Numbered from the stretch's first letter, positions 2,573 to 18,768 are shown. The stretch is DNA of 64,000 bases from Nitrosopumilus oxyclinae (GCF_013407165.1 NZ_CP026994.1:1454187-1518186); one strand, 5' to 3'. Notes: generated by a model from the sequence alone, not told the origin. Made by a program: numbers and translations.

Positions 2573-3868
2573 TCAAATTACAATTATTTTTCTTTTTACA
2601 AGATTTTCAATTATATTTAGAAACTCATCATCAGAAATCTTTTCTTCATGCCACCATTCTGTTGAAATTTTTACCCATGAAGGAACATCCCATTGTGATT
2701 CAGCAATTACATCTCTTTCAGGGACTGATGCAATTTGTTTTTCAAAAAGGAAATCGATACCTTCTAGAAATTCTGAATCAGAAATCTGATTGTTTACCCA
2801 CCAATCAGCATTAGTCTTAATCCACTGTGGAATTTTTGGCATTTCAGGAGGCAATCCTTTATCAAAACCGGAAATTTTAAGCGTACCCTGTGATGTAGGT
2901 CCAACTGTAAATGCAACATGCCAAAAGCCCATCTCATCTATACTTTGAATAAAATCTACTGGTTCATCATTTAGAGTAACAGAAAATTTTTCATTTCCAG
3001 AAATTGGTGGGAATTCAAAATTTGCATATGTCTCTAATGGATAACTATTGTAACCTCTAATGCTAAGAGTTGTTCCTGATTCATCAAATTTTGCAGCAGA
3101 ATACCATGCACCTGAGTCATATCTAAAATCAAAATTTCCATCATTTTTCTTTGCAGTAATTGGAATTACAGTAGTATCAACGGGTGCAAAACAGCTGTAA
3201 TAGAACACATCTTGAGTAATTGCAGGATCTGGATACATTGAGAAATCTAAAATTTCCCCGGGTTCAATTTTTTCAATAAATTCAATGTTTTGTGTAATAT
3301 CTAATACATTTTCATATCCATGAACAACAGCATAGATTTTAGGATAAAATATGGTTTGATCACCTGTGTTTTGAATTCTTCCTGTAATGTGACCATCATT
3401 ATATTTTATCAGAGTTTTGTCATACAATATTTGAATTGGAATTTCATGTGTAATTGCTTTTTGGAATGTTATTTCAGGATTAACAAGTATTGGAGTATTA
3501 GATAATAACTCAGGGAATTTTATCTTAAATGGTATTTCTTTTTCAGGGCCTAATGGAACATGGTTAATTATTTTTGAAATTGTTTTAGAATCATCAATTA
3601 CAGAAACAGTAATTGTTGGTACTACTCCAAAATTATTTGTATTTTTTACGTTCCCTACAACAGTATAGATTCCATTAGAATCAAAATATCCTAGATATTC
3701 ATGTAATGGGATATAGACATCAGCAAATGCTAATTGAGGAACAAACAACATGACAAATAGAAATCCAAATAATATTGGAATTTTTGAGGCTAAATTTCTA
3801 GAAGGAATTGATAATATCTTCGAATCCAGCTGTTGGTTTTTCAAGTAAGCTTGGTCTATAGTCTTCAA
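2573..3868 (-). CDS. Secreted protein with two C-terminal WW-containing modules
   Basis: A 431-residue protein with a signal segment ending LAFA before DVYIPLHEY. The central part is beta-rich and has no family I recognise. The C-terminus has two copies of a roughly 35-residue module: IPQWIKTNADWWVNNQISD and, more diverged, VPSWVKISTEWWHEEKISD, each followed by a short hydrophobic helix. The same module occurs in pairs in the proteins at 4747 and 6536. No ATG exists before the signal segment. The TTG at 3868 (used here) or the TTG at 3844 must start translation, and either overlaps the upstream regulator gene by about 50-70 bases, suggesting coupled translation. Confidence 0.75.
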   Translation of the reverse strand: MKTIDQAYLKNQQLDSKILSIPSRNLASKIPILFGFLFVMLFVPQLAFADVYIPLHEYLGYFDSNGIYTVVGNVKNTNNFGVVPTITVSVIDDSKTISKIINHVPLGPEKEIPFKIKFPELLSNTPILVNPEITFQKAITHEIPIQILYDKTLIKYNDGHITGRIQNTGDQTIFYPKIYAVVHGYENVLDITQNIEFIEKIEPGEILDFSMYPDPAITQDVFYYSCFAPVDTTVIPITAKKNDGNFDFRYDSGAWYSAAKFDESGTTLSIRGYNSYPLETYANFEFPPISGNEKFSVTLNDEPVDFIQSIDEMGFWHVAFTVGPTSQGTLKISGFDKGLPPEMPKIPQWIKTNADWWVNNQISDSEFLEGIDFLFEKQIASVPERDVIAESQWDVPSWVKISTEWWHEEKISDDEFLNIIENLVKRKIIVI

Positions 3869-4298
3869 TTAATTTATCAATAAGATCTCTTGCTTTAATA
3901 TGATATCTCTTTTTTAATTCTACTAATCTAATCTCTACTAATCCATCATCTACAATTTGTGATAGATACAAGGAAACTGTTGATGGTGATTTTTTAACTG
4001 CCTTTACTAGTTGTGAAAATTCTAATCCATCATTTTCAATTAATGCAAGTAACAAATCCCGAGGAGTTTGTTTTCGTAAAGCTTTGATTACAATTGATTC
4101 ATCTTCGGTAATTTTTGGTGGATAAAATCTTGATTGACGCGGTCCACGAATCACCTTGATGATACCGCTTTTTTCTAATTTACCAAGATAATGACTCAAT
4201 ACTCCATTTTTTAATCCAGATGAACGCATAATTTCTCGGAATTGAATTCCCGGATTTTGTTCAATGATTTGTTGTAATTGTAAATCCCTATCAGTCAT
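3798..4298 (-). CDS. Two-domain winged-helix transcription regulator
   Basis: A 166-residue protein with two winged-helix DNA-binding domains in tandem. The first (about 8-60) contains QFREIMRSSGLKNGVLSHYL and the wing IIKVIRGPRQSRFY. The second (about 80-140) contains FSQLVKAVKKSPSTVSLYL. Double winged-helix proteins of this kind are common in archaea, often with a membrane-protein partner. It overlaps the membrane protein gene at 4291 by 8 bases and the secreted protein gene at 2573 by about 70 bases, so the three form one operon. It has no visible ligand domain. The inverted repeat at 4728-4750 before the operon is a candidate autoregulatory site. Confidence 0.8.
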   Translation of the reverse strand: MTDRDLQLQQIIEQNPGIQFREIMRSSGLKNGVLSHYLGKLEKSGIIKVIRGPRQSRFYPPKITEDESIVIKALRKQTPRDLLLALIENDGLEFSQLVKAVKKSPSTVSLYLSQIVDDGLVEIRLVELKKRYHIKARDLIDKLIEDYRPSLLEKPTAGFEDIINSF

Positions 4299-4692
4299 TT
4301 CTAAAGACTCCTAATGCCAATAACCCTAATGTCAAAAATGTCAATAAATGTCCTACCTCAGAGAGAGTCACATCACCAATATCAAAGACGGATGGCCATG
4401 TAGCATCCACTAGTAAAACAACTTCTGCTGCAATAAAATTGGTAAAAGCTGCAGCACTAAGTAAAAGTCGCTTTGTTCTTAATCTATAATATGCAAAAGT
4501 TGCAAGTACTGAGATAAAGACTGCAAGTGTAATTCCACCAACATGCAAAAAGATGTGTGCTAAATGATAACCATGTAATAAATGTGGAATAATTATCGGC
4601 ATTGCTAAAATTGCAATAACACCAGCAACAACAATTGAAAACAATGTGGATTTTCTCTCAACTATTCTCTCAGGCCTAAACAAAGTGATCAA
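4291..4692 (-). CDS. Four-helix membrane protein, partner of the winged-helix regulator
   Basis: A 133-residue hydrophobic protein with about four transmembrane segments (near 17-37, 44-66, 75-96 and 108-130). Histidines cluster in the loop HLLHGYHLAHIFLH between helices 1 and 2, which could bind metal or haem, though this is inference. No ATG is available in the correct position; TTG at 4692 or at 4683 starts it. The TATA-like TTTAAA (4710-4715) is 30 bases from the 4683 TTG, favouring that start for a leaderless transcript. No family recognised. Its overlap with the regulator gene suggests a membrane-linked sensor or anti-regulator role. Confidence 0.65.
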   Translation of the reverse strand: MITLFRPERIVERKSTLFSIVVAGVIAILAMPIIIPHLLHGYHLAHIFLHVGGITLAVFISVLATFAYYRLRTKRLLLSAAAFTNFIAAEVVLLVDATWPSVFDIGDVTLSEVGHLLTFLTLGLLALGVFRND

Positions 4693-4727
4693 AATATCGA
4701 TTTTAGAGATTTAAAGTGACTGGTTCA

Positions 4728-4750
4728 TTGATCGAATAGGAATCGATCAA
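4728..4750. promoter_or_regulatory. Inverted repeat TTGATCGA-N7-TCGATCAA before the membrane protein/regulator operon
   Basis: Eight-base perfect arms (4728-4735 and 4743-4750) around a 7-base spacer. The repeat lies 15 bases upstream of the TATA-like TTTAAA (4710-4715) of the operon that reads toward lower coordinates, and overlaps the stop codon of the gene at 4747. It could be an operator for the encoded winged-helix protein, or the stem of a terminator for the preceding gene. Confidence 0.45.
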
Positions 4751-6339
4751 ACACTAAGAATTCCAAATTTTATCATAAACTCCAAACCTTGAACAAATGT
4801 TATATCATCTATTTGACCATCTGCCCACCATGCAGCATTGTTTCTAATCCAAGAAGGGATTTCCTGAGATTCTGAAGTTTCTTGTTGTGTTTGTGGAATT
4901 AGAATAATTTTATTTTGAATCATATATTCAATTCCTTGAATGAATGTTTTATCATCTATTTGCTCTTGAGACCACCACAATGCATTGTTTCTAATCCAAT
5001 CAGGAATTGAAATCTCATTTGATGCTATTCTATCAATTACAACAGGAAATGTTGCCTTTGCAAGTTTGTTGCCATCTAAATTTTTGAAATTAAGATTTAC
5101 AATGCCAGTTACATCATCGGGAATCATAAATTCTGCAATGTTATGTTCATCTCTAGAATCAGTACTAATTCCATTTTTTTCAAAAATTATTCTTTCATTT
5201 TGAGTTACTGAAAATTCATAATTTGTCGCAACTGGTTTATTCTTTAAGAAAATATCAGTTACATCAAAAAGTATTTTTGCATTTGAATTTGATTTTAGAT
5301 TTTCAGGTTCTGAAGACACAAGAATTCTAAATTGCCCATTATCAGTAACTGCACTAAGATGAGCATAATCACGATCTGGAGTTATAATAAAGTCCATTCC
5401 ATTTTGGTTTGAATTATTATCAAAAATTTTCTGTAACTCTTTTTGATATATTATAAAATGAACAATTCGTCCATCAGCAAAAAAGTCATCAATGTTTACA
5501 ATATCTTGTGATAATTGTACTCCATTGACATACATTGTAAATCCAGATACTAGTAAATCACCAAATTTTTTTGGAATTACCAATTCTTGATGAACTACTG
5601 ATGTTTGATTGATGTTAGATTGACTCCACTCAAACGGCATGAAAAAGCTAATTTCTTTAGAATTAGGATCATAATTGAAATTTGAAATTTTATCATAGTA
5701 AGTAATCACATGAATGTTTTGTTCACCAAAGTTTGGATCAACAAAATCATGTCTAGATGTTTGAGCTATTGAAATTCCGGCGTTAAAGACTAGAGGCTCA
5801 TCTAATTTTTGAGAATATCCATCAGCAGTCAATACACTAACATCTAATTTGTATAATCCACCTTCGCTTAGTTTAGGTCCTTTAACATGAACCATTCTGC
5901 TTTCAAGACCCAATAATGACCCAAATAGCCCTCCTCCATTTTCTTCCTCTAAAATAATTGAATCAGTTTCTTCGGATACAAAATTAAAAACTATGAATCC
6001 ATTGTCTGCTTTGAATTCTTGCTCAAAAAGAAATTCTTCTCCACGTTCAGACTTGATAAGAAATGTAACATCTCGTAGAGTAATTTTTGAATTAAAATCA
6101 ATTAATGAAATTGATATTTGCTGATCATCACTTGTATTAGGATCACTTTTTGATGATGATACTTCCAAAGTTACTAGTTTACCATTTAGATCAACTGGTG
6201 GAAAAGTTTCACTTCCTACGCCATGGCCATAGACATTATCAAATCCAACAATAGATAAAATTATTAAAAATGCAAGTAATGGAAAACTTTTCAATCTAGG
6301 TCCACTTGTCAGGATTTTTCTTTCGAATTTCTTTTCCAT
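4747..6339 (-). CDS. GHG-family secreted protein with two C-terminal WW modules
   Basis: A 530-residue protein. The signal segment ends NVYG and is followed by HGVGSETFPP, so the mature protein probably begins with His-Gly. It shares its layout with the proteins at 6536 and 17407: an Ig-like N-terminal part, the line SKEISFFMPFEWSQSN, then VVHQEL, a YVNGVQLS segment and a RIVHFIIY segment. Two WW modules end the protein (IPDWIRNNALWWSQEQIDD and IPSWIRNNAAWWADGQIDD). I chose ATG 6339, which gives a lysine-rich n-region and shortens the overlap with the small ORF at 6296; a TTG at 6366 is also in frame. Function unknown; an extracellular copper-binding or structural role is inferred. Confidence 0.75.
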   Translation of the reverse strand: MEKKFERKILTSGPRLKSFPLLAFLIILSIVGFDNVYGHGVGSETFPPVDLNGKLVTLEVSSSKSDPNTSDDQQISISLIDFNSKITLRDVTFLIKSERGEEFLFEQEFKADNGFIVFNFVSEETDSIILEEENGGGLFGSLLGLESRMVHVKGPKLSEGGLYKLDVSVLTADGYSQKLDEPLVFNAGISIAQTSRHDFVDPNFGEQNIHVITYYDKISNFNYDPNSKEISFFMPFEWSQSNINQTSVVHQELVIPKKFGDLLVSGFTMYVNGVQLSQDIVNIDDFFADGRIVHFIIYQKELQKIFDNNSNQNGMDFIITPDRDYAHLSAVTDNGQFRILVSSEPENLKSNSNAKILFDVTDIFLKNKPVATNYEFSVTQNERIIFEKNGISTDSRDEHNIAEFMIPDDVTGIVNLNFKNLDGNKLAKATFPVVIDRIASNEISIPDWIRNNALWWSQEQIDDKTFIQGIEYMIQNKIILIPQTQQETSESQEIPSWIRNNAAWWADGQIDDITFVQGLEFMIKFGILSV

Positions 6340-6502
6340 CAACTGTAATCTGATCTTGTTCTTCAAAAACTGTATGCCATCTACCGTTGTCAGGAAAAAT
6401 TTTATTCATTTCTTCAACTTTATCACTTGTTGGTGCCTTGTTCATCAAAGCTCCCCATCTCATGTTAGGAACTTTTGGCATGATATCATTGATGTCTTTC
6501 AT
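6296..6502 (-). CDS. Possible small protein, 68 aa
   Basis: An ATG ORF starting 33 bases after the stop of the gene at 6536 and overlapping the gene at 4747 by 44 bases. The protein (starting MKDINDIMPKVPNMRWGAL) is soluble and charged, with two tryptophans and no low-complexity stretch, and its amino-acid make-up looks like real coding sequence. The overlap would allow translational coupling to the downstream secreted protein. No family recognised. It could be spurious. Confidence 0.45.
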   Translation of the reverse strand: MKDINDIMPKVPNMRWGALMNKAPTSDKVEEMNKIFPDNGRWHTVFEEQDQITVDGKEIRKKNPDKWT

Positions 6503-6535
6503 TATACTATCACTTTACTGAATTTGTTTAAAAAC

Positions 6536-8257
6536 CTATGATTGAATTCTCATAATTCCTTCTTTAATCAAATATTGAATTCCTTGAATGAATGAATCAT
6601 CATCGATTTGTCCTGCTGCCCACCACTCTGCATTGTTTTTAATCCAGCCTGGTATATCACTTGAACCAGAACCAATTCCTTGTGAAGTTGGAGGAATTTT
6701 TAGAACATTTTCTTTAATCAAATATTGAATGCCTTGAACAAATGAACCATCATCGATTTGTCCTGCTGCCCACCACTCTGCATTGTTTTTAATCCAACTA
6801 GGAATTGGTGTTTTTTCAGGTATTGAAGTTGTTGGAGAACCTGGACCAATCTCAATTATTGCTGAACCAATTCCAGCATACTTTGGATCATAATCCAATC
6901 CAGTTCCATAAACTAAGATATCAACACGAATTTGACCAGCAGATGGAACAAAGATTTTCTGTATATCTAATCCTTCAATGGATGTAATTCCAGGATTGAG
7001 AGGGTCATCTCCATCATTTCGAGCTATTTCATTATCAAATTCATCTAAAACAACATAGGCGTATTTTAGATCTTTGATTAAATCTCTATTTTCATTAAAG
7101 AATGTAAACTCAAATGGAACATTCTGATTTGCACCATATTTTCCATCCCATGAAATGTTAACTGTTGTTGGGACTTGTTCAAAGCTTTTAGTATCTACTA
7201 GATAAAATTCAGTAGAACTTTTTGATATTTCTGCTAATGGAACTAATTTCAAATCCATTTGTTGATTATCATAATTAGAAGGCCCAAGAGTTTTGTTAAT
7301 TTTCTCTAATTCATTTTTGGTAATTAAGAAATGAACAATGTTTGAATCCTCTGATGAATATGGATCATTAAGTAATGCTCTCTGATCAATTTCAACACCA
7401 TTAACATATCCTTTGAATTGCTTCCCATCTGCATAAGGTGCAAATGATTTAGGAACTCTTACTTCTTCATGTACTACTTGTACCAAGTTTACATAATCAG
7501 GACTCCAATCAAATGGCATATCAAATGAAATTGAATTATCAGATGTATCAAATTCAAAGTTATCAACATCATCATAGTATGTTTTTATAACTACTGGGAT
7601 TTCTTCAGCATTTGCTGTTTGGAAAGAAAATTTTTGTTCTTGTGCAACACTGACAAAAGTCTCATAGCTTAGTAAATTAGCTAATACTGTTCTTGGACTA
7701 GTAGCAGCCTCTATGTCAACTCGAATCTTATACAATCCACCTTTTACAAATATAGGACCTGTAATTGATGGTCTTCCACAAATTTCTAAATTATCATCAG
7801 TGCATGCTGCACCTTGAACAAATAATGCACCAGGTGCACTAACATGTTCAGAACCACCATAAATGGAGCATTTTTCAAGAAGGCTTTCATTACATCCAGT
7901 TTTTGGTTTAATTTTCACATCTAATCTACCATCTAAATCATAAAACAAATTTCTAGCTAAAAGTTCACCACTTTGCCAAACTTCTATTCTGTAAGTTACT
8001 TTGTCAAGATTCTTGTCAGTTAATGTATCAAAGAATCGTATTTGCATGTTAGCAGAATCAAGTTCTCCAACTGTAATATCAGATGGACTCAATTGTGTAC
8101 GAACAGTTACCTCCATATCACCAAATGTTAGTGGTTCAGCTTGATCTCCACCAAGTCCATGTCCAAATGCATCAGGAAGAACAGTGGCAATTGAGAAAAT
8201 ACCAATAATTGAAATGAATAATGTAAACTTGCTATACAATACAAAAATTGCGTTCAT
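6536..8257 (-). CDS. GHG-family secreted protein with two near-identical WW modules
   Basis: This 573-residue protein has a signal peptide ending DAFG, followed by [11 protein letters not shown], so the mature end is probably His-Gly-Leu. It is a paralogue of the proteins at 4747 and 17407, sharing [40 protein letters not shown] and [12 protein letters not shown]. Four cysteines in the first half (CNESLLEKC and CTDDNLEIC) are specific to this copy and probably form disulfides. The two C-terminal modules ([19 protein letters not shown] and [19 protein letters not shown]) are almost identical at DNA level. The ATG at 8257 has a basic n-region and a clear hydrophobic core. Function unknown. Confidence 0.82.
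6561..6646. repeat. Direct repeat copy 1 (WW module)
   Basis: This 86-base stretch matches 6711-6796 with about four mismatches, at a 150-base offset. It encodes the second WW module of the protein at 6536. The high identity points to a recent duplication or gene conversion within the gene. Confidence 0.85.
6711..6796. repeat. Direct repeat copy 2 (WW module)
   Basis: Matches 6561-6646 (about 95% identical by eye). It encodes the first WW module of the same protein. The sequence between the copies encodes a Gly/Ser/Pro-rich linker. Confidence 0.85.
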
Positions 8258-8354: not shown

Positions 8355-9173
8355 ATGAAAATTTTACTTGTACTGTTACTAATTCCATTATTGACTATTC
8401 CTGCATTTGCAGAATCCCAAACTTTACCTACTGAGAAAGGAACACTTGATGTAAAATTAACACATGATGAAATAGAACCAAATGTTCAAACAAAAATCAA
8501 TATTGATTTTCTAAATCCTCAAACCAAAAAAATTCAAGAGCATATTGATTATACAATATCAGTTTCTAAAGATGGAGAAAAAGTCTTTGGACCAATTCCA
8601 CTAACTCATACTTCAGTTGGATCAGTTAAGATTCCAATTGAATTCAATCTTGGCGAAGGTGTGTATACAATGGACTTTGAAATCGAAGGAATTCTATTTC
8701 AGCCAATTCCTACTGAAACAGTATCATTTGATATTACAGTAGGAGAAGCACATGCACAACCAACACCAAACAATGATGTTCCACCTACTGAAGAAAATGG
8801 TGGATGTTTAATTGCAACTGCAGCATATGGTTCTGAAATGGCGCCACAAATTCAACAATTACGAGAACTTAGAGATAATACTGTATTATCAACAAAGTCT
8901 GGAATTGCTTTTATGAGTGGATTTAATCAATTCTATTATTCATTTTCACCTAGTGTAGCTGACTATGAAAGAGAGAATCCTGTTTTCAAAGAAATTGTAA
9001 AAGTTGGATTAACTCCAATGCTATCATCATTATCATTACTTAATCTAGTTGAGATTGATTCAGAGCAAGAAATACTGGGATATGGAGTCTCCATCATTTT
9101 ACTAAATATTGGAATGTATGTTGGAATCCCTGCATTTGGAATTCTAAAGTTGTACCAGTTTAGAAAAAACTAG
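8355..9173 (+). CDS. Secreted CFI-box-CTERM protein
   Basis: A 272-residue protein with a signal peptide (1-19, ending AFA). An Ig-like domain (about 25-130) is followed by a Pro/Asn-rich linker and a conserved box GGCLIATAAYGSEMAPQIQQ with the downstream LRELRDNTVL. This is the CFI-box motif found near the C-terminus of many surface proteins in archaea and bacteria. The box is followed by a region ending in a hydrophobic helix (about 242-264) and a basic tail, so the protein is anchored in the membrane. The ATG at 8355 is the only sensible start. The function of the box is not established. Confidence 0.8.
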   Translation: MKILLVLLLIPLLTIPAFAESQTLPTEKGTLDVKLTHDEIEPNVQTKINIDFLNPQTKKIQEHIDYTISVSKDGEKVFGPIPLTHTSVGSVKIPIEFNLGEGVYTMDFEIEGILFQPIPTETVSFDITVGEAHAQPTPNNDVPPTEENGGCLIATAAYGSEMAPQIQQLRELRDNTVLSTKSGIAFMSGFNQFYYSFSPSVADYERENPVFKEIVKVGLTPMLSSLSLLNLVEIDSEQEILGYGVSIILLNIGMYVGIPAFGILKLYQFRKN

Positions 9174-9230: not shown

Positions 9231-10091
9231 ATGAAGACTAAAGCAATTAGCTCTTTCTTCGTACTATTTGCTATCGTAGCTGGTATTGTCGCAATGGCAC
9301 CAGGTGCATATGCAGATCATGCTGAAGTAACAGTTATTCCAGCAGCAGGTTCTGGTTCTCCAGGATGTGAAGAAACACCAGAAGGATGTTTCATTCCAAT
9401 GATTGCAACTGTCGATGTTGGTGGAAAAGTAATTTTCTCAAACACTGATAGTGCAGCACATACATTCACATCAGGAGAGGCAACAGATTCTGATTCAGTC
9501 GGAGTAGTATTTGATTCTAGTTTAGTAATGGCTGGAAACACATACGAATGGACTCCAACTGAAGTAGGTGATCAACCATACTTCTGTATAGTTCATCCAT
9601 GGATGGCAGGAATAATCACAGTACAAGGAATTGAAGAAGACGATCATGGTGATGAAATGATGATGCCAACAGGTGCTGCATCAGCAACAGGAATGTTGTC
9701 TGACGGTACTAAAGTTTCAATTTGGACAACAGCACCAACAAAAGGTGAGATGATGGAAATCAGTGTTCAATTTGAAGGTGCAGAACATGTCAATCACGAT
9801 ATGAAAGTCACACAAAATGGTAATACAGTGCTAGATGATAAAGCTGCACACCATCACGATGGAAAAGGAGTTCATACAACAAAAGCTCTTAGCACATCTG
9901 ATCCAGTAAATGTAACAATTACTTTCCAAGGTTATGGAGTAAATGATCCAAAGACTGGACCAATTGGTGAACAAGTAGTATTCTCAAACGTTGTCCCAGA
10001 ATTTGGTACAATTGCAATGATGATACTAGCTGTAGCAATCATAAGCATCGTAGCAGTAACTGCAAAATCTAGAGTCGTTCCAAGATTTTAG
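9231..10091 (+). CDS. Plastocyanin-like blue copper protein with PEFG C-terminal sorting tail
   Basis: This 286-residue protein has a signal peptide cleaved after AYA at residue 28. The first domain (about 30-135) is a cupredoxin with type 1 copper ligands His77, Cys119, His122 and Met125 (in AAHTF and CIVHPWM) and a Cys46-Cys53 pair. A second beta domain (about 145-255) carries many histidines (NHDM, AHHHDGKGVH) and could bind further metal. The C-terminus is VPEFGT, a hydrophobic helix and a basic end, the PEFG-CTERM pattern of thaumarchaea, which implies processing by an archaeosortase. Ammonia oxidisers are thought to use such proteins as electron carriers in place of cytochrome c. Confidence 0.92.
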   Translation: MKTKAISSFFVLFAIVAGIVAMAPGAYADHAEVTVIPAAGSGSPGCEETPEGCFIPMIATVDVGGKVIFSNTDSAAHTFTSGEATDSDSVGVVFDSSLVMAGNTYEWTPTEVGDQPYFCIVHPWMAGIITVQGIEEDDHGDEMMMPTGAASATGMLSDGTKVSIWTTAPTKGEMMEISVQFEGAEHVNHDMKVTQNGNTVLDDKAAHHHDGKGVHTTKALSTSDPVNVTITFQGYGVNDPKTGPIGEQVVFSNVVPEFGTIAMMILAVAIISIVAVTAKSRVVPRF

Positions 10092-10835: not shown

Positions 10836-13610
10836 ATGAGAAAATTTCTAATATTTTTACTTGTCTTATCATTCATTTCCATCCCATTAGCAGCAGCTCA
10901 TCCATTTACAGAAGAAACTATTCCAAGTTTGGAATCTAATGCACCTACAGGTACAACAAAAGTAATTGTATTTTTTTCAGAACCAGTTGATATCAACTTT
11001 AGTGAACTCAGAGTGCTTGACAATAATGGAAATCAAATAGATAACAAAGATACGAGTTACTATCAAGGAGAATCATCCCTTATTGTTACAACACCTCCTT
11101 TAGAAGATGGAGTTTATACTGCAACAACCAAAGTCCTCTCCAAAATAGATGGACATCTTGTTCCAGGGGCATTCTTGTTTGCAGTAGGGGATGTTGACAT
11201 TAGCGGAATAGTAGATGTTGATAGACCATCTGAGCTTGTATTTTTACCTGAGGCAGGGGCAAGATTTCCTGGAATTGTTGGTCAAACAATTGTTCTAGGA
11301 GTTGTAATTGCATCTCTAATGATTTGGGGAACACAAAACAAACATTCTATCAAAGAAGAATTAGAAAAAATTGAATCAATTCATCATGGAAAATTTATGT
11401 CACTTACGGGAATTGGCCTCGGATTAGTTTTTGTTTCTGATATTTTGATGATTGCAGTACAAACTATACGACTAGAAACATCTCCATTAAATGCGATACA
11501 AACTGACTTTGGAAATATTTGGCTAATCAGAATGGCAATTACAGTAATTTTATTAGGAATTTGGTTTGGATTAGACAGGAAAAAAACTCTATCAAAAAAG
11601 AATCAGATTCCAATGCTTGTAATGTCACTTGCATTAATTGCTACTACAAGTTTAATCGGACATGGTGCAGCTAGTGGAGAAATACCTGCAGTTGTATTAG
11701 ATTACATTCACAACCTAGTTGCAGCTGTATGGATAGGAGGAATATTTTATTTTGTCTTTACATTATTACCAACATTTTCTCAACTCAAAGAATCAAATAG
11801 AGAAAAGATGAGTTTGGTACTTATTCCACGATTTTCAATAGCGTTTATCATCTCAGTAGGAATTGTAATTATTACAGGTCCAACACTTTTGTGGTTCTTA
11901 GAAAGCGATGTTGGGCTAATCACTGAATCAGTGTATGGTCAATTAATCATTCTCAAAATAGCAATTGCTGCAATTATGGTAGGGTTAGGAGGCTTTTTCC
12001 AATTTAAAATACAAAAAAATGCAGAAAAAAATTATTCATCGGGAAAAATTTCTGTTCATAAAAAATTAAAAAGATCACTTAAGGTAGATGCAACGTTAGG
12101 GATTATTCTACTTGGAGTAGTTGCGTTACTAGCTAATGGAACATTGCCTGCAGGTGAAATTCAAAAAGTTGGTGCTCAAGAGATTGTTTATGGGTTTAAA
12201 ACTACAGAATTTTCAGAAAATGCAAAATTCATTATTGATATATCTCCATTTTCAAGCGGAGCTAACACCATTCTAGTTACAGTAAGTGATTTTGAAGGGA
12301 ATCAACTTTATGATTCAGACCAAATTCATGTGAAAATATCAAACCCATCAAAGAATATTTCTCCAATAGAAGTTCCAATGTCAATAAAGAATCCATCTGA
12401 TCCAATTCAATTCCAAGGGGAATTAACATTTGGGTTTTCAGGAGAATGGTTAGTTGAGATCGAATCTAAAAGAACTGAGAATGCAAATGAATCAGTAATG
12501 TTGAATTTACTTGTAAAACCTAGATTAACAGATATTCAAACTCAAGTTGTTGAATACAATTTGCCAGAAGATGCAAAACCACTCTTCTTAGTTTATGATG
12601 GAAAAGATTCTTTGTGGATTAGTGATGCATCTGCTCCTAAATTATGGCAATTCTCACTTGAAACAAATGAATTTACACCATATTCATTTGATGGTTTAGC
12701 TACAACTTTTCTAACACAAGATAGTAAAGAAAGAATTTGGTTTACAGATCCACCAAGAAATCAAATTGGATTTATTGATATTAAAAGTAAAGAAATCACT
12801 ACTAAAACTCTTCCAAAACTAGATCCAGTAATTTCAGAAAATACACCAGTATTCATTCAAGCAGATTTTGATGATAATATTTGGATTACAATTGTTAACA
12901 AAGATAGAATTCTAAAATATTTACCAGAAGAAGATATCTTTAAAGAAATAGTTTTGCCAGATAGACAATCATTTCCGTTTGCATTAACTATTGATGAAGA
13001 TGGAAAGATTTGGTACACAGCAACAGGTGCAGGTAAAATAGGATTCATAGATCCACAAACTAATGAATTAACTCAGATTTCAACTGAGACAATTTTACAA
13101 GCACCAGAAGCTTTGATTTTTGATAATGATGGAAATCTATGGATTGCAGAGCATACAGGCTTGGCAATTACTAAATTTAATCCAATTTTAGAGACATTTA
13201 GCAGGATAACTGTGCCTGATAAGGAAGCATTACCTTTTGGTATGACATTTGACAGATATGGAAACATTTGGTTTGCACAACATACTGTTGATAGTCTAGG
13301 CGTTTATGATCCAGATAACAATGATTTGATAGAGATTCCAATTCCAACTGAAACATCATTTACTCAGTTTATGGCATCAGATGGAAATGACAATGTTTGG
13401 TTTATTGAACAACAATCAAATAAAATTGGCACTGTAAAGTTAACAGAAATTCCAATCAGCATTTCACAAATTCAAGAGTCAAATAGTTTAGAGATAAAAT
13501 ATACTGAACTTGCATCACCATTGATTGCCTTAGGAATTATTGCAACATCATTGTTTTTTGTAAAGAGTGTAAAAGATAAACGAAGATTAAATTCTTTGAT
13601 TAATTCTTAG
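10836..13610 (+). CDS. CopC-CopD copper protein fused to a C-terminal beta-propeller
   Basis: A 924-residue multidomain protein. The signal peptide ends LAAA, and the mature protein starts with His22. A CopC domain follows (22-120), with the DGH motif Asp105-His107; His1/Asp/His is the known Cu(II) site of CopC. A CopD-type region of about eight helices (about 148-430) comes next. A beta domain (about 440-545) resembles FixH/YtkA-type sequences. Then comes a propeller of about seven repeats like those of virginiamycin B lyase (about 555-865), for example GKIWYTATGAGKIGFIDP and GNIWFAQHTVDSLGVYDP. A final helix (about 895-913) ends the protein. CopC-CopD imports or handles copper; the propeller's role is unknown. 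Confidence 0.9.
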   Translation: MRKFLIFLLVLSFISIPLAAAHPFTEETIPSLESNAPTGTTKVIVFFSEPVDINFSELRVLDNNGNQIDNKDTSYYQGESSLIVTTPPLEDGVYTATTKVLSKIDGHLVPGAFLFAVGDVDISGIVDVDRPSELVFLPEAGARFPGIVGQTIVLGVVIASLMIWGTQNKHSIKEELEKIESIHHGKFMSLTGIGLGLVFVSDILMIAVQTIRLETSPLNAIQTDFGNIWLIRMAITVILLGIWFGLDRKKTLSKKNQIPMLVMSLALIATTSLIGHGAASGEIPAVVLDYIHNLVAAVWIGGIFYFVFTLLPTFSQLKESNREKMSLVLIPRFSIAFIISVGIVIITGPTLLWFLESDVGLITESVYGQLIILKIAIAAIMVGLGGFFQFKIQKNAEKNYSSGKISVHKKLKRSLKVDATLGIILLGVVALLANGTLPAGEIQKVGAQEIVYGFKTTEFSENAKFIIDISPFSSGANTILVTVSDFEGNQLYDSDQIHVKISNPSKNISPIEVPMSIKNPSDPIQFQGELTFGFSGEWLVEIESKRTENANESVMLNLLVKPRLTDIQTQVVEYNLPEDAKPLFLVYDGKDSLWISDASAPKLWQFSLETNEFTPYSFDGLATTFLTQDSKERIWFTDPPRNQIGFIDIKSKEITTKTLPKLDPVISENTPVFIQADFDDNIWITIVNKDRILKYLPEEDIFKEIVLPDRQSFPFALTIDEDGKIWYTATGAGKIGFIDPQTNELTQISTETILQAPEALIFDNDGNLWIAEHTGLAITKFNPILETFSRITVPDKEALPFGMTFDRYGNIWFAQHTVDSLGVYDPDNNDLIEIPIPTETSFTQFMASDGNDNVWFIEQQSNKIGTVKLTEIPISISQIQESNSLEIKYTELASPLIALGIIATSLFFVKSVKDKRRLNSLINS

Positions 13611-14418
13611 ATAGCAATCCAGCTGATTTTATTCCCATAGTTCCTGCAAGTAATCCAATTGCAATTAAAACAATGGTTCCTGCAGGAGTAATATCAAAGA
13701 TGTAAGAGACTAGAATTCCTACTACAACTGAGAAAACAGAAAAACTCATTGAAATTATTGCTGTTTGTTTGAATCCTTTACCATACATTATTGCTGTAAC
13801 ATTAGGAATTACAAAGAGAGCTGAAATCAACAATACACCTACAAGTTGAATAGATGTAACTACAGTAATTCCTGCCATAAAAACAATCAAGTAATTTATT
13901 TTTTCTACAGGAATTCCACTAACTTTGGCTTGTTCTTCATTGAATGTTGAATAAAGAAGTTGACGATAAAGCAAGAGAATTACAATTAGAATTGCCCCAG
14001 TTAATGCTAAAACTAGAACAGTATCATCTACACTAACTAGTAGAATACTACCAAATAGAAAACTAAAGATATCAATTGTAAATCCTCCAGATAAACCAAT
14101 AATTACAAGCCCAACTGCTATGCCTGAGGACAATAGTACGGCAATAGATGCATCACCAGAAATGTTGTATCTATCTTTGACTTTAGTAATTATCAGTGCA
14201 CTAGCAATAGAAACAGCATATGCTGTCCATAAAGGATAAACACCTGCCAGTAATCCTAAAGCAATTCCTCCAAATGATGAATGGGCTATTGCATCACCAA
14301 ACAATGAATAACGTCTTAAAACTAGAAACAACCCAACAACTGAACAAAGAATTGCAATTGCAACTCCAGAAATTAATGCTCTATGCATAAAACCAAAAGT
14401 TAGAATTTCAAAAGACAT
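13600..14418 (-). CDS. znuB: Metal ABC transporter permease (ZnuB/ABC-3 family)
   Basis: This 272-residue membrane protein has about eight helices and the ABC-3 family pattern: an SLFGDAIAHSSFGGIALG stretch near residue 35-55, and a VTSIQLVGVLLISALFVIP segment near 185. It forms the channel of a zinc/manganese-type importer. It is third in a znuA-znuC-znuB operon and starts 2 bases after the ATPase gene. Its 3' end overlaps the opposite CopC-CopD gene by 11 bases. Metal specificity (Zn, Mn, Fe, Cu or Ni) cannot be read from the permease. Confidence 0.88.
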   Translation of the reverse strand: MSFEILTFGFMHRALISGVAIAILCSVVGLFLVLRRYSLFGDAIAHSSFGGIALGLLAGVYPLWTAYAVSIASALIITKVKDRYNISGDASIAVLLSSGIAVGLVIIGLSGGFTIDIFSFLFGSILLVSVDDTVLVLALTGAILIVILLLYRQLLYSTFNEEQAKVSGIPVEKINYLIVFMAGITVVTSIQLVGVLLISALFVIPNVTAIMYGKGFKQTAIISMSFSVFSVVVGILVSYIFDITPAGTIVLIAIGLLAGTMGIKSAGLLSKN

Positions 14419-14420
14419 GA

Positions 14421-15143
14421 TTAATGATGATGCATGTGTTCCTGCATTGAAGCCTCAGAGTATTGCTTGACTAATTCATCATCTGAAAAAAATGTTTCAG
14501 ATTCACCATGAAAGAACAAAGTTCTATTCAAACATGCGACATGATTTGCTAGTTTGTTTACTGCATCCAAATCATGGGATGACCAAATAATTGTAATTTT
14601 TTGTTTAGAATTTAATTCACGTAAAATACTGTAAAACAGATCAATGCTTTGTTGATCAATTCCTGTCACGGGTTCATCTAAGATCAAAATTTTTGGATTA
14701 TTTACCAAAGCTTTTGCAATAAAGACACGTTGTTGTTGACCACCTGACAGTTCGCCTATTCGTCTATTACGTAATTCATGTATCCATAACTGTTGTAAAA
14801 CCTCATCAATTTTATTCTCATCAGATTCTTTTCTTAATCCCATTCTAACCACATCGGTAACAGTTACTGGAAAATTATTTTCAAAGATTGGTTTTTGTGG
14901 AACATATCCAAGTTCTTTTAGATAATTTTTTGATGTTTTTATGTCCTCATCAAAAAATTTGATTGTACCTTTGTATTTGGTATTGAGTCCAAGCATTGAT
15001 GCAAAAAGTGTAGATTTTCCTGCTCCATTAGGTCCAATTATGCCTAGAAAATCACCTTGGTTAACAACTAAACTAACATCATCAAGAGCCTTAACATCTG
15101 GATATTGAACCGTCAAGTTGTTAATTTCTACTACTTTCAACAT
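14421..15143 (-). CDS. znuC: Metal ABC transporter ATP-binding protein (ZnuC-like)
   Basis: A 240-residue ABC ATPase with Walker A GPNGAGKST (about 37-45), Q-loop YVPQK, signature LSGGQQQR, Walker B ILILDEP and switch His in SSHDLD. It powers the importer formed with the neighbouring permease and binding protein. The last residues, MQEHMHHH, make a natural histidine tail that may sense or bind metal; this is inference. It overlaps the binding-protein gene by 7 bases, indicating coupled translation. Confidence 0.9.
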   Translation of the reverse strand: MLKVVEINNLTVQYPDVKALDDVSLVVNQGDFLGIIGPNGAGKSTLFASMLGLNTKYKGTIKFFDEDIKTSKNYLKELGYVPQKPIFENNFPVTVTDVVRMGLRKESDENKIDEVLQQLWIHELRNRRIGELSGGQQQRVFIAKALVNNPKILILDEPVTGIDQQSIDLFYSILRELNSKQKITIIWSSHDLDAVNKLANHVACLNRTLFFHGESETFFSDDELVKQYSEASMQEHMHHH

Positions 15144-16063
15144 AATGCCTCCTTTAGATTTTCAAGGTTTTGAGACATTTTTGAAATATAATCATCTTCA
15201 GATACAATTTCAAGTGGAGATAAAACTAAAACTTTACCACCTATTTCATTTGCAATAATTTGTGATGTTTTTGTGTTTACAGTTTCTTCACTAAAAATTA
15301 TTTTAATATTCAATTCTCTAGCTGTTGAAATAACATTCTCTAATGTTTTTGCAGTTACTTCTCCATGAGAATTAGTTGTTGCAACAATAGTATGTTGATT
15401 TAAATCATATTCATCTGCAAAATAAGAAAAAGCATCATGAAAAGCAATGAAATCTTGTTTGCATTCGGATAATTCATTTTTAATTTTTGAATCTAATACA
15501 TCTAATTTTTTATTATATTCTTCTGCATTTGTATGATAAAATTGTGCATTATTAGGATCAGAATTTGAAAAAGCATTTGCAATATTTTGAACTTGTATTT
15601 TTGCATATACAGGATTTAACCAAATATGTGGATCTCCTAGAAGATGATCATGTTCATCATGTTTTTCTTCAGACTGAATTTTACTAATTCCTTTACTTGT
15701 ATCGACAATTATTCCCTGATAATTATTTTCAATTAAATCATCAACCCAATTTTCAAAACCTATTCCATTAATTATTATAAAATCAGACTTGTGCATTTTT
15801 TGAACATCTTTTATGGTAGGTTCCCAATCATGTGGTTCAACTCCAACAGGAACAAGTAAAGTTACATCAATTTTTTCTCCTCCCACAATTTGAGAAAATT
15901 CATGAAGTGGATTAAATGATGAAACGGCTAAAAGTTTAGAATTATCATTGTCTGTAAACTGTTGATTGGTATTGGTACCATAAACAGCAGCAGAAGCTAA
16001 TGGAATTACTACTACAATTGAAATTATTGCCATCTTAGTTTGAGTATTCACGCAGCAGTTCAA
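15137..16063 (-). CDS. znuA: Metal ABC transporter substrate-binding protein (ZnuA-like)
   Basis: A 308-residue secreted protein of the cluster 9 (ZnuA/PsaA) family. The expected metal ligands are visible: His78 (GVEPHDWEPT), His146 (GDPHIWLNP) and His209 (AFHDAFSYF). An acidic/histidine loop (EEKHDEHDH, 132-140) precedes the second ligand; such loops are typical of zinc-binding members. The start is either TTG 16063 (used here, giving a longer n-region) or ATG 16033. A TATA-like TTTATAAA at 16081-16088 favours the TTG for a short-leader transcript. It is the first gene of the operon and divergent from a NikR-like regulator. Confidence 0.87.
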   Translation of the reverse strand: MNCCVNTQTKMAIISIVVVIPLASAAVYGTNTNQQFTDNDNSKLLAVSSFNPLHEFSQIVGGEKIDVTLLVPVGVEPHDWEPTIKDVQKMHKSDFIIINGIGFENWVDDLIENNYQGIIVDTSKGISKIQSEEKHDEHDHLLGDPHIWLNPVYAKIQVQNIANAFSNSDPNNAQFYHTNAEEYNKKLDVLDSKIKNELSECKQDFIAFHDAFSYFADEYDLNQHTIVATTNSHGEVTAKTLENVISTARELNIKIIFSEETVNTKTSQIIANEIGGKVLVLSPLEIVSEDDYISKMSQNLENLKEALC

Positions 16064-16065
16064 TC

Positions 16066-16126
16066 AAGATTATTAATAAATTTATAAAATCTTAATAAGA
16101 TTATTGCTAAACTTATAAGATAATTA
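16066..16126. promoter_or_regulatory. Divergent znu/nikR-like control region with repeated AAGATTATT and a palindrome
   Basis: AATCTTA-A-TAAGATT (16088-16102) is a perfect palindrome with 7-base arms beside the TATA-like TTTATAAA (16081-16088) of znuA. AAGATTATT occurs at 16066-16074 and 16097-16105, with the near copy AAGATAATT at 16118-16126. The offsets of 31 and 21 bases are close to three and two helix turns. CTTATAAG (16112-16119) is the TATA box of the regulator gene, about 26 bases before its ATG. The pattern suits a ribbon-helix-helix repressor. Confidence 0.6.
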
Positions 16127-16140
16127 ATAACATTAGGCAT

Positions 16141-16524
16141 ATGCCAATAGTTTCAATCTCTCTAAATGATGAGATTCTATCTGAATTAGATAAACTCCAA
16201 TCTTCTATGGGATTCTCAGGAAGATCAGAAGCTATCAGAGCAGGAATCAGAACATTCGTTTCTGAAGAAAAACAAAAGGCGGATTTATCAGGAAACATTC
16301 ACGCTATTCTCTTAGTTGTTCATAATGATGAATTCGATCACATAGTTTCAGGAATCACTCATAATTTTGAAGATTTGATCACAACACATCTTCATAGTAA
16401 AATCGATAAAGAAAAATGCATGGAACTTTTTGTAATTAATGGAGATGCTGAAAAAGTATCTACAATTACAAAAGATTTTCAAAGAAATAAAAACATGGAT
16501 ACAGTAAAGCTAGTGGCACTTTAA
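16141..16524 (+). CDS. NikR-like ribbon-helix-helix metal regulator with altered metal site
   Basis: A 127-residue protein. Residues 1-45 form a ribbon-helix-helix domain (MPIVSISLNDEILSELDKL, GRSEAIRAGIRTFV), and residues 52-127 an ACT-like metal-binding domain as in NikR. Aligned without gaps to E. coli NikR, His74, His85 and Cys93 match ligands His76, His87 and Cys95. The fourth ligand position (His89) is Lys87, while an extra His83 lies two residues earlier. It is divergent from the znuABC-like operon, which it probably represses when metal is plentiful. The altered ligand set suggests a metal other than nickel. Confidence 0.85.
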   Translation: MPIVSISLNDEILSELDKLQSSMGFSGRSEAIRAGIRTFVSEEKQKADLSGNIHAILLVVHNDEFDHIVSGITHNFEDLITTHLHSKIDKEKCMELFVINGDAEKVSTITKDFQRNKNMDTVKLVAL

Positions 16525-17406: not shown

Positions 17407-18768
17407 CTACTTGAGAAAAAAAGTCTGATGTTTTGTACCAAGTACGATCACACTGATCATACCAACTACTAGTATAGCCATAACAATAGTTCCAAATTCA
17501 GGTGCAACCACTAAAACAAATTCAGTTTCTTGGCCTGTATTTCTAATATTTTCAAATTTAATTATTGTAGGACCGGTCTGATCTTCAGTAAATGTAAATT
17601 TCTCAAATTCACCACCAACTTGAGCCTTTCCAGATACACGATGAATTTCCTCATCATTTTGAATTATTACAAATGTATAGTCAGAACTTCTTAGAGGTTC
17701 ATTTGTTCTTCCATCTCTAATTGTAAAAATAAAATTAGTATCAACACCAGGTTCTACATTCATTGGATCCCATGAGAGATTTACTTTGAAATCTTCACTT
17801 TTTGTATAAGCTTCTAATGGAAATGCAGTATCTTTGCTCATAGAAATTGTAAATACCATATTATCAGGATATTCATCAAGCTCTTTTTTCATCTCATTTT
17901 TCAAATATCGTAAATGATCTTGTAACAAAACAAAATGAACTATTCTTTCATCGTCTTCTGTATAGTCATCAACAGAAACTGAAGATTTGAACAATTCAAT
18001 TCCATTAACATATCCTGAATAACTAGGAGCTAAAAACTCATCAAAGTATTTTGGGAAATGGGTTTCTACATGAACCACATTAACATGTGACATTTGTTTT
18101 TCACTCCAGTCAAATGGCATTTCAAATGTGACTTTATTTGCCTCATAGTCATATTTGAAATTAGAAATTGTATCAAAATATGACTTTGAGCGAAAATCTA
18201 CATCATTATTTTCAGAATCTTTTTGAGTAAACGATAAAGTCTCAATTACGCTCAAATCAGCATTATAGATTCCAGATTCTATGATATTTGTAGGCTCATC
18301 AATTGTTCGAATCTCAATTTCAAAATTGTATAATCCACTGGAATCAAACAAAGGTCCTGTGATTTTAAGCGGTTCAGATTCAGTTCCATGCCATGCTCCA
18401 AGCAAGGAATCTTGTTCACCGTGAATTGTAATTTCATTTTCTTGTGTGGGTTCTACTTGAATTTGTAAAACACCATCTTCAGCAAAGAAATAATTTCTAA
18501 ATATCATTTCATTTTCATGAAATAGACCAATCAGAAACGTAACATTTTTTGCATTTTCTTTTGTTACATCTTCAGTTGCAGTAATTGTAATTTGCTCTTG
18601 ATCATTTTCAAAAACCAATGGCATCTCTACAGAAATTGATAGTTTTTTTCCTTGAATGTCAATTGATGAAATAGTATCAAGACCAAATCCATGTCCATAA
18701 ACACTACTTGCAGGAAACAACAGACATGAAATTAATCCAAATATTACTAATTTTTTTAAAGAAATCAT
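17407..18768 (-). CDS. GHG-family secreted protein with PEFG C-terminal sorting tail
   Basis: A 453-residue paralogue of the proteins at 4747 and 6536. The signal peptide ends SVYG and the mature protein begins HGFGLDTISS. Shared lines include KVTFEMPFDWSEKQMS, VVHVETHFPKYFDEFL, GYVNGIELF and RIVHFVLLQDHL. It has no WW modules; it ends in APEFGT plus a hydrophobic helix and a lysine, the PEFG-CTERM pattern. A separate Ig-like domain (about 330-420) precedes the tail. It follows the LON-domain gene by 2 bases. Function unknown, with envelope copper binding inferred from the exposed N-terminal histidine. Confidence 0.8.
   Translation of the reverse strand: MISLKKLVIFGLISCLLFPASSVYGHGFGLDTISSIDIQGKKLSISVEMPLVFENDQEQITITATEDVTKENAKNVTFLIGLFHENEMIFRNYFFAEDGVLQIQVEPTQENEITIHGEQDSLLGAWHGTESEPLKITGPLFDSSGLYNFEIEIRTIDEPTNIIESGIYNADLSVIETLSFTQKDSENNDVDFRSKSYFDTISNFKYDYEANKVTFEMPFDWSEKQMSHVNVVHVETHFPKYFDEFLAPSYSGYVNGIELFKSSVSVDDYTEDDERIVHFVLLQDHLRYLKNEMKKELDEYPDNMVFTISMSKDTAFPLEAYTKSEDFKVNLSWDPMNVEPGVDTNFIFTIRDGRTNEPLRSSDYTFVIIQNDEEIHRVSGKAQVGGEFEKFTFTEDQTGPTIIKFENIRNTGQETEFVLVVAPEFGTIVMAILVVGMISVIVLGTKHQTFFLK

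Follow-up and report, generated by a model that had tools for sequence, protein, structure and literature searches.

A paired helical module that probably holds exported proteins on the surface of Nitrosopumilaceae

Nitrosopumilaceae ammonia oxidisers are among the most abundant archaea of the ocean. The module reported here has several described counterparts. Bacterial SLH (S-layer homology) domains are short tandem helical repeats that provide non-covalent attachment by binding a pyruvylated secondary cell-wall polymer; to our knowledge, archaea of the group studied here have no peptidoglycan. CWB2, LysM and similar envelope-binding repeats are small repeated modules that serve as a common address for many enzymes. 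The PEFG-CTERM tail (TIGR04296) of surface proteins with a signal peptide consists of a short motif, a transmembrane (TM) helix and a basic end, and is strictly C-terminal. For the envelope considered here, the 2024 paper on the structure of the S-layer protein NmSLP left the anchoring open and only speculated on an anchor; the C-terminal Ig domain of the S-layer protein (SLP) was proposed for this role, and the TM-anchored SlaB is a minor component (PMC11153153). In Nitrososphaera viennensis, a terrestrial relative, the S-layer is of the p3 and not of the p6 type (PMC12153357).

The module, which we call the WW module, resembles each of these systems in part. It shares with SLH domains the short helical repeats in tandem, the position at one or the other end of a variety of exported proteins and, as we propose, the non-covalent attachment, but it forms pairs instead of triplets, occurs in a different lineage and has no SLH sequence match. 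With CWB2 and LysM it would share the small repeated unit and the common address for many enzymes, again without a sequence or fold match. It occupies the same place on the same ectodomain family of signal-peptide surface proteins as PEFG-CTERM; unlike that tail, it is soluble, mostly doubled and free of a TM helix, and it also occurs N-terminally. SlaB and the C-terminal Ig domain of the SLP are proposed anchors in the same envelope, but SlaB has a C-terminal TM helix and the SLP domain is Ig-like, whereas the WW module is neither.

The locus and the module

The window, i.e. the whole stretch of 64,000 nucleotides analyzed here, belongs to the single-contig genome (1.585 Mb) of Nitrosopumilus oxyclinae. 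Three minus-strand open reading frames (ORFs) between positions 2573 and 8257 each carry two WW modules at the C-terminus, six in total, as the first-pass annotation had noted. They belong to a conserved five-gene cluster, whose other two genes encode a predicted membrane protein of 133 aa and a winged-helix regulator: the regulator recurs in 15 other loci, the membrane protein in 15 and the three successive WW genes in 20. For the coordinates see Table 1.

Table 1. Features of the locus in the window and of the PEFG-tailed homologue
Feature	Coordinates	Strand	Basis
431 aa exported protein, two divergent WW modules at its end	2573..3868	-	ORF reading, profile search
Both WW modules of the 431 aa protein	2576..2857	-	
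Winged-helix (HTH) regulator, member of the five-gene cluster	3798..4298	-	
133 aa predicted membrane protein, member of the five-gene cluster	4291..4692	-	
539 aa exported protein, Ig-like ectodomain family, WW pair at its end	4747..6366	-	
Both WW modules of the 539 aa protein	4750..5031	-	
573 aa exported protein, ectodomain of successive beta-sandwich (Ig-like) domains, WW pair at its end	6536..8257	-	
Both WW modules of the 573 aa protein; two helix-helix hairpins in the prediction	6539..6829	-	
Homologue of the 573 aa ectodomain, PEFG-CTERM tail in place of WW modules	17407..18768	-	

Structure comparison of the 573 aa protein returned complement, macroglobulin and S-layer proteins; since these fold matches are weak and partial, we call the ectodomain Ig-like and nothing narrower. 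The 431 aa protein has a different ectodomain, in which an FxLYD-like profile match (residues 156-211) stayed below the cut-off, and its modules comprise residues ~342-384 and 391-431. At some distance in the window (13600-16524), ORF reading alone indicates a permease, an ATPase and a substrate-binding protein, a metal ABC-transporter-like set adjoining a NikR-like regulator.

A profile search of the own genome gave 33 matches at E ≤ 0.1 (best E 3.7e-26) in about 18-19 ORFs. This copy number and the strong conservation of individual columns show that the module is not a chance pattern. Its consensus over ~37 residues is IPxWIKNNAxWWxxGxIDDxxFxxGIxYLIxxGIIxI. Among 248 distinct modules P6 is conserved in 100%, W8 in 99%, W15, W16 and F26 in 98% and D23 in 95%, position 10 is Lys or Arg in 98%, and I21, A13 and L33 also fall within the range of 92-100%. 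The pattern first written for the module broadly describes the four copies of the 539 and 573 aa proteins; the two copies of the 431 aa protein are looser (KTNADWW...QISDSEF and VPSWVKISTEWW...KISDDEF).

The tandem pair is a soluble domain of ~95 residues. AlphaFold2 prediction on 96 tandem pairs, a calculation suggested by the first-pass annotation, reached a mean pLDDT of 86 and a pTM of 0.75. The predicted helices (11-21, 27-39, 61-71 and 77-89) form two helix-helix hairpins, from which we infer that each module folds as a helical hairpin. On a helical wheel, I9, A13 and W16 would face helix 2, and W8, N12 and W15 would make up another conserved face, which is a candidate for the binding surface. 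The spacing from proline to proline is 49 or 50 residues in 115 of 119 pairs despite a variable linker. Part of this constancy may come from homogenization of the copies. In the 573 aa orthologues (28 loci; window copy at 6539-6829) the two copies within a gene are 91% identical in DNA, the same copy compared between orthologues 77-80%, and the observed amino-acid identity was never reached in 10,000 trials of partner shuffling. Evolution of the two copies is thus concerted, and gene conversion or unequal recombination would be its simplest cause.

Relation to known families, and distribution

No family in Pfam or NCBIfam matches the module (31 modules and carriers were scanned against Pfam at E ≤ 1). 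The best matches of a profile search against the PDB were short and insignificant, a Foldseek comparison of the predicted fold with the PDB and viral models gave no match at E ≤ 0.001, and the motif is absent from the text of the open-access papers searched. The earlier suggestion that the module lies outside known families is borne out by these searches, which also returned no described domain of unrelated function. A resemblance to SHOCT, SLH or dockerin domains was not supported by the family and fold searches; for SLH (PF00395) in particular, Pfam gave no match at E ≤ 1. The eukaryotic WW domain has a three-stranded beta fold with two tryptophans ~20 residues apart. The module has its tryptophans at positions 8, 15 and 16, is predicted to be all-helical and gave no Pfam match, which sets it apart from that domain. 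Judged by sequence, the WW module is a new, uncatalogued domain family that would serve a known kind of function. Since these comparisons gave no fold relative, homology does not point to a ligand.

The module occurs in all 63 Nitrosopumilaceae among 398 genomes sampled from the phylum; the other 335 yielded one weak match (E 5.9e-4) in one genome. In a 121-genome sample of the order, all 24 family members were positive with 16-46 copies each, and 0 of the 97 others. In a scan of 84,980 genomes, which lists the best matches, so that remote relatives could lie beyond it, these were 79 loci, all on Nitrosopumilaceae-type contigs except for two bins labelled as bacterial. The two bins (L081, Phycisphaerales; L083, Proteobacteria) do not argue for a wider bacterial origin: in both cases the contigs appear to come from Nitrosopumilus, the bin being mislabelled or contaminated, and L081 holds the entire cluster.

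A tblastn search of named phage records gave no match. Two contigs of a virus catalogue do contain the module. One (L254:1-783) encodes a cupredoxin-like protein with HYR domain and WW pair next to an HNH endonuclease and DUF4326; the blue-copper protein of the window (9231-10091) has a PEFG tail, compared with the WW pair of this cupredoxin-like protein. In the other (L253), which may be an assembly chimera, phage-like structural genes are joined to a PhnD operon of thaumarchaeal type that includes two WW modules.

Carriers and exchange with membrane anchors

We analyzed 136 complete carriers, 118 from other genomes and 18 from the own genome, and assigned signal peptides and TM segments by a simple hydropathy scan. 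A hydrophobic, signal-like N-terminus is present in 132 of them; the other four have no clear one, and two of these look truncated. The carriers are therefore not the mainly cytoplasmic proteins that would have spoken against attachment. None of the 136 has a hydrophobic segment past residue 60, a PEF motif (last 60 residues) or a lipobox, which argues against PEFG-CTERM/archaeosortase substrates and against archaeal lipoproteins. Within the own-genome stretches, 0 of 18 carriers had a later TM segment, compared with 18 of 41 non-carriers whose N-terminus is hydrophobic (Fisher p = 4.5e-4), a figure that is indicative only, since the comparison group contains some non-exported proteins. The own genome also has 10 PEFG matches; a covalent or TM route thus already exists, which counts against an attachment role of the WW module.

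The modules, mostly in tandem, are located at the C-terminus in 125 carriers, directly behind the signal peptide in eight and internally in three; a TPR-peptidase protein has two modules in mid-protein, away from the edges. The cargo includes matrixin peptidases, a polysaccharide deacetylase, PhnD and chains of Ig-like domains. As in envelope-attachment modules as a functional class, the carriers are exported and without other anchors, and the module is found at either end and in exchange with anchors.

This exchange is seen in the Ig-like ectodomain family. The first-pass annotation had proposed that WW modules replace a PEFG tail in all three proteins and that the protein at 17407 keeps the remainder. 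The latter indeed aligns to the ectodomain of the 573 aa protein over residues 18-416, almost the full length (phmmer 5e-35), and ends in a TIGR04296 match above the NCBIfam cut-off. The replacement applies to the 573 and 539 aa proteins only, because the 431 aa protein has no match to that ectodomain family. Elsewhere in the order, homologues have a PEF-TM tail, another TM tail or no tail; in Nitrosopumilaceae they end in WW or PEFG. In a quick tree of 78 ectodomains (tails excluded, no bootstrap) the state changes between WW and not-WW five times, and all five changes are forced by well-supported branches. The 573 and 539 aa proteins of the window belong to separate WW clades, the latter adjoining PEF-TM proteins. 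Some homologues in another family of Nitrososphaeria have no tail of any kind, so the anchor may be dispensable. Two further variants were observed: a 573 aa homologue (L204) ends in a Lys/Thr/Asp-rich low-complexity tail with no detectable WW or PEF, and a member of the PEFG clade (L249) has another TM tail that resembles the end of the window protein at 8355-9173 (CFI_box_CTERM).

The module takes the place of other sequences in two further carriers, namely of the hydrophobic N-terminus in PhnD-type binding proteins and of the C-terminal region in an S-layer-protein paralogue. PhnD of the window's genus consists of a signal peptide, one WW module and a phosphonate-binding domain (Pfam 3.6e-45), and its gene adjoins ABC-transporter genes in an operon of the PhnD-C-E type. 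A metagenomic relative has two WW modules, and an orthologue from another family (59% identical) has a hydrophobic N-terminus alone and no WW module. The second carrier is an S-layer-protein paralogue of 1085 aa (L066:5779-9036), which matches NmSLP (PDB-entry 8c8k) with E 8e-116 and ends in a WW pair. Such a short paralogue (about 1060-1120 aa) is present in eight of eight genomes of the genus that were read (L066; L287-L293). It is accompanied by two genes for full-length S-layer proteins (1704-1729 aa), which have an Ig-like end and no WW module; the WW pair occupies the place where the long SLP continues into C-terminal Ig domains.

Proposed function and alternatives

We propose, with a probability of roughly 0.7, that exported proteins are held non-covalently on the surface of Nitrosopumilaceae by the WW module, which would fold as a small helical hairpin. 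A surface-holding device is probable because the module is located on exported proteins where relatives have a membrane anchor. The attachment role suspected in the first-pass annotation gains support from the export of the carriers, the exchange of tails across the tree and the placements in PhnD and the S-layer paralogue. Carriers would be exported through an ordinary signal peptide, the mature proteins having no other recognizable anchor, and would stay on the cell through the binding of one module, or more often two, to a common envelope component. This component could be a glycolipid of the membrane, a receptor dedicated to the module, the S-layer as such or the stalk region of the S-layer. 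On its carriers the WW module would do what PEFG with archaeosortase, or a TM tail, does on their relatives. We infer binding, and retention as its purpose; the best explanation is a module functionally like SLH or CWB2 and unrelated in sequence.

As to the ligand, two carriers make us favour one close to the membrane: PhnD has to work with a membrane transporter, and the S-layer paralogue with WW pair already has lattice domains. Co-distribution speaks for an S-layer ligand: matches to the N-terminal lattice region of NmSLP were confined to Nitrosopumilaceae, as is the case for the module. The co-occurrence with S-layer genes that the first-pass annotation had suggested examining is thus found, but it is weak evidence, because module and lattice region are confined to one and the same clade.

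The alternative that survives best is a docking module of the dockerin type: WW would bind a partner protein and build extracellular multi-protein assemblies, and not retain proteins on the cell as such. A module common to many unrelated cargoes, a tandem pair of fixed spacing that recalls docking pairs and a helix 1 conserved at nearly every position would all suit this function. What WW replaces, however, are anchors, a better fit to retention, and docking merges with our explanation if the partner is itself cell-bound. We regard docking proper as unlikely. Less credible still is the reading that the carriers are simply trapped between membrane and S-layer and that the module stabilizes them, caps their fold or is sticky in a generic way. 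The S-layer alone could retain exported proteins, and the tailless homologues of the ectodomain family would agree with this, but the invariant Trp/Lys/Asn pattern of 248 modules exceeds the needs of a two-helix cap, and the module is attached to unrelated cargo at either end. A sorting or processing signal of a new archaeosortase type, recognized during export and then cut or modified, would agree with the mostly C-terminal position and the exchange with PEFG tails but is very improbable: the module is also found internally and behind the signal peptide, positions impossible for a C-terminal sorting signal, it has no hydrophobic segment or basic tail, and it is predicted to be a folded domain.

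Retention on the surface thus remains our preferred reading. As a tentative extension, more doubtful than retention itself, the WW pair could be the lineage-founding anchor of Nitrosopumilaceae. In the space between membrane and S-layer, a dedicated receptor would recognize it non-covalently as the address of about 20 proteins per genome. The short S-layer protein would be one of these and would fix the lattice to the cell, and the system would have arisen at the same time as the p6 S-layer of the NmSLP type. With about 20 exported carriers per genome, the module marks a large share of the surface proteome, and it does so in all such genomes. It is a family for annotators to add, and its soluble domain of ~95 residues is a testable handle on how proteins and the S-layer are held.

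The C-terminal region of NmSLP (about 1357-1724) is more widespread than its lattice region. These ~370 residues of the S-layer protein also occur as stand-alone proteins of ~395 aa (G000:C1:328649-329737, and in many genomes) and in other families without the lattice region, which makes them a candidate for a conserved anchoring or assembly unit.
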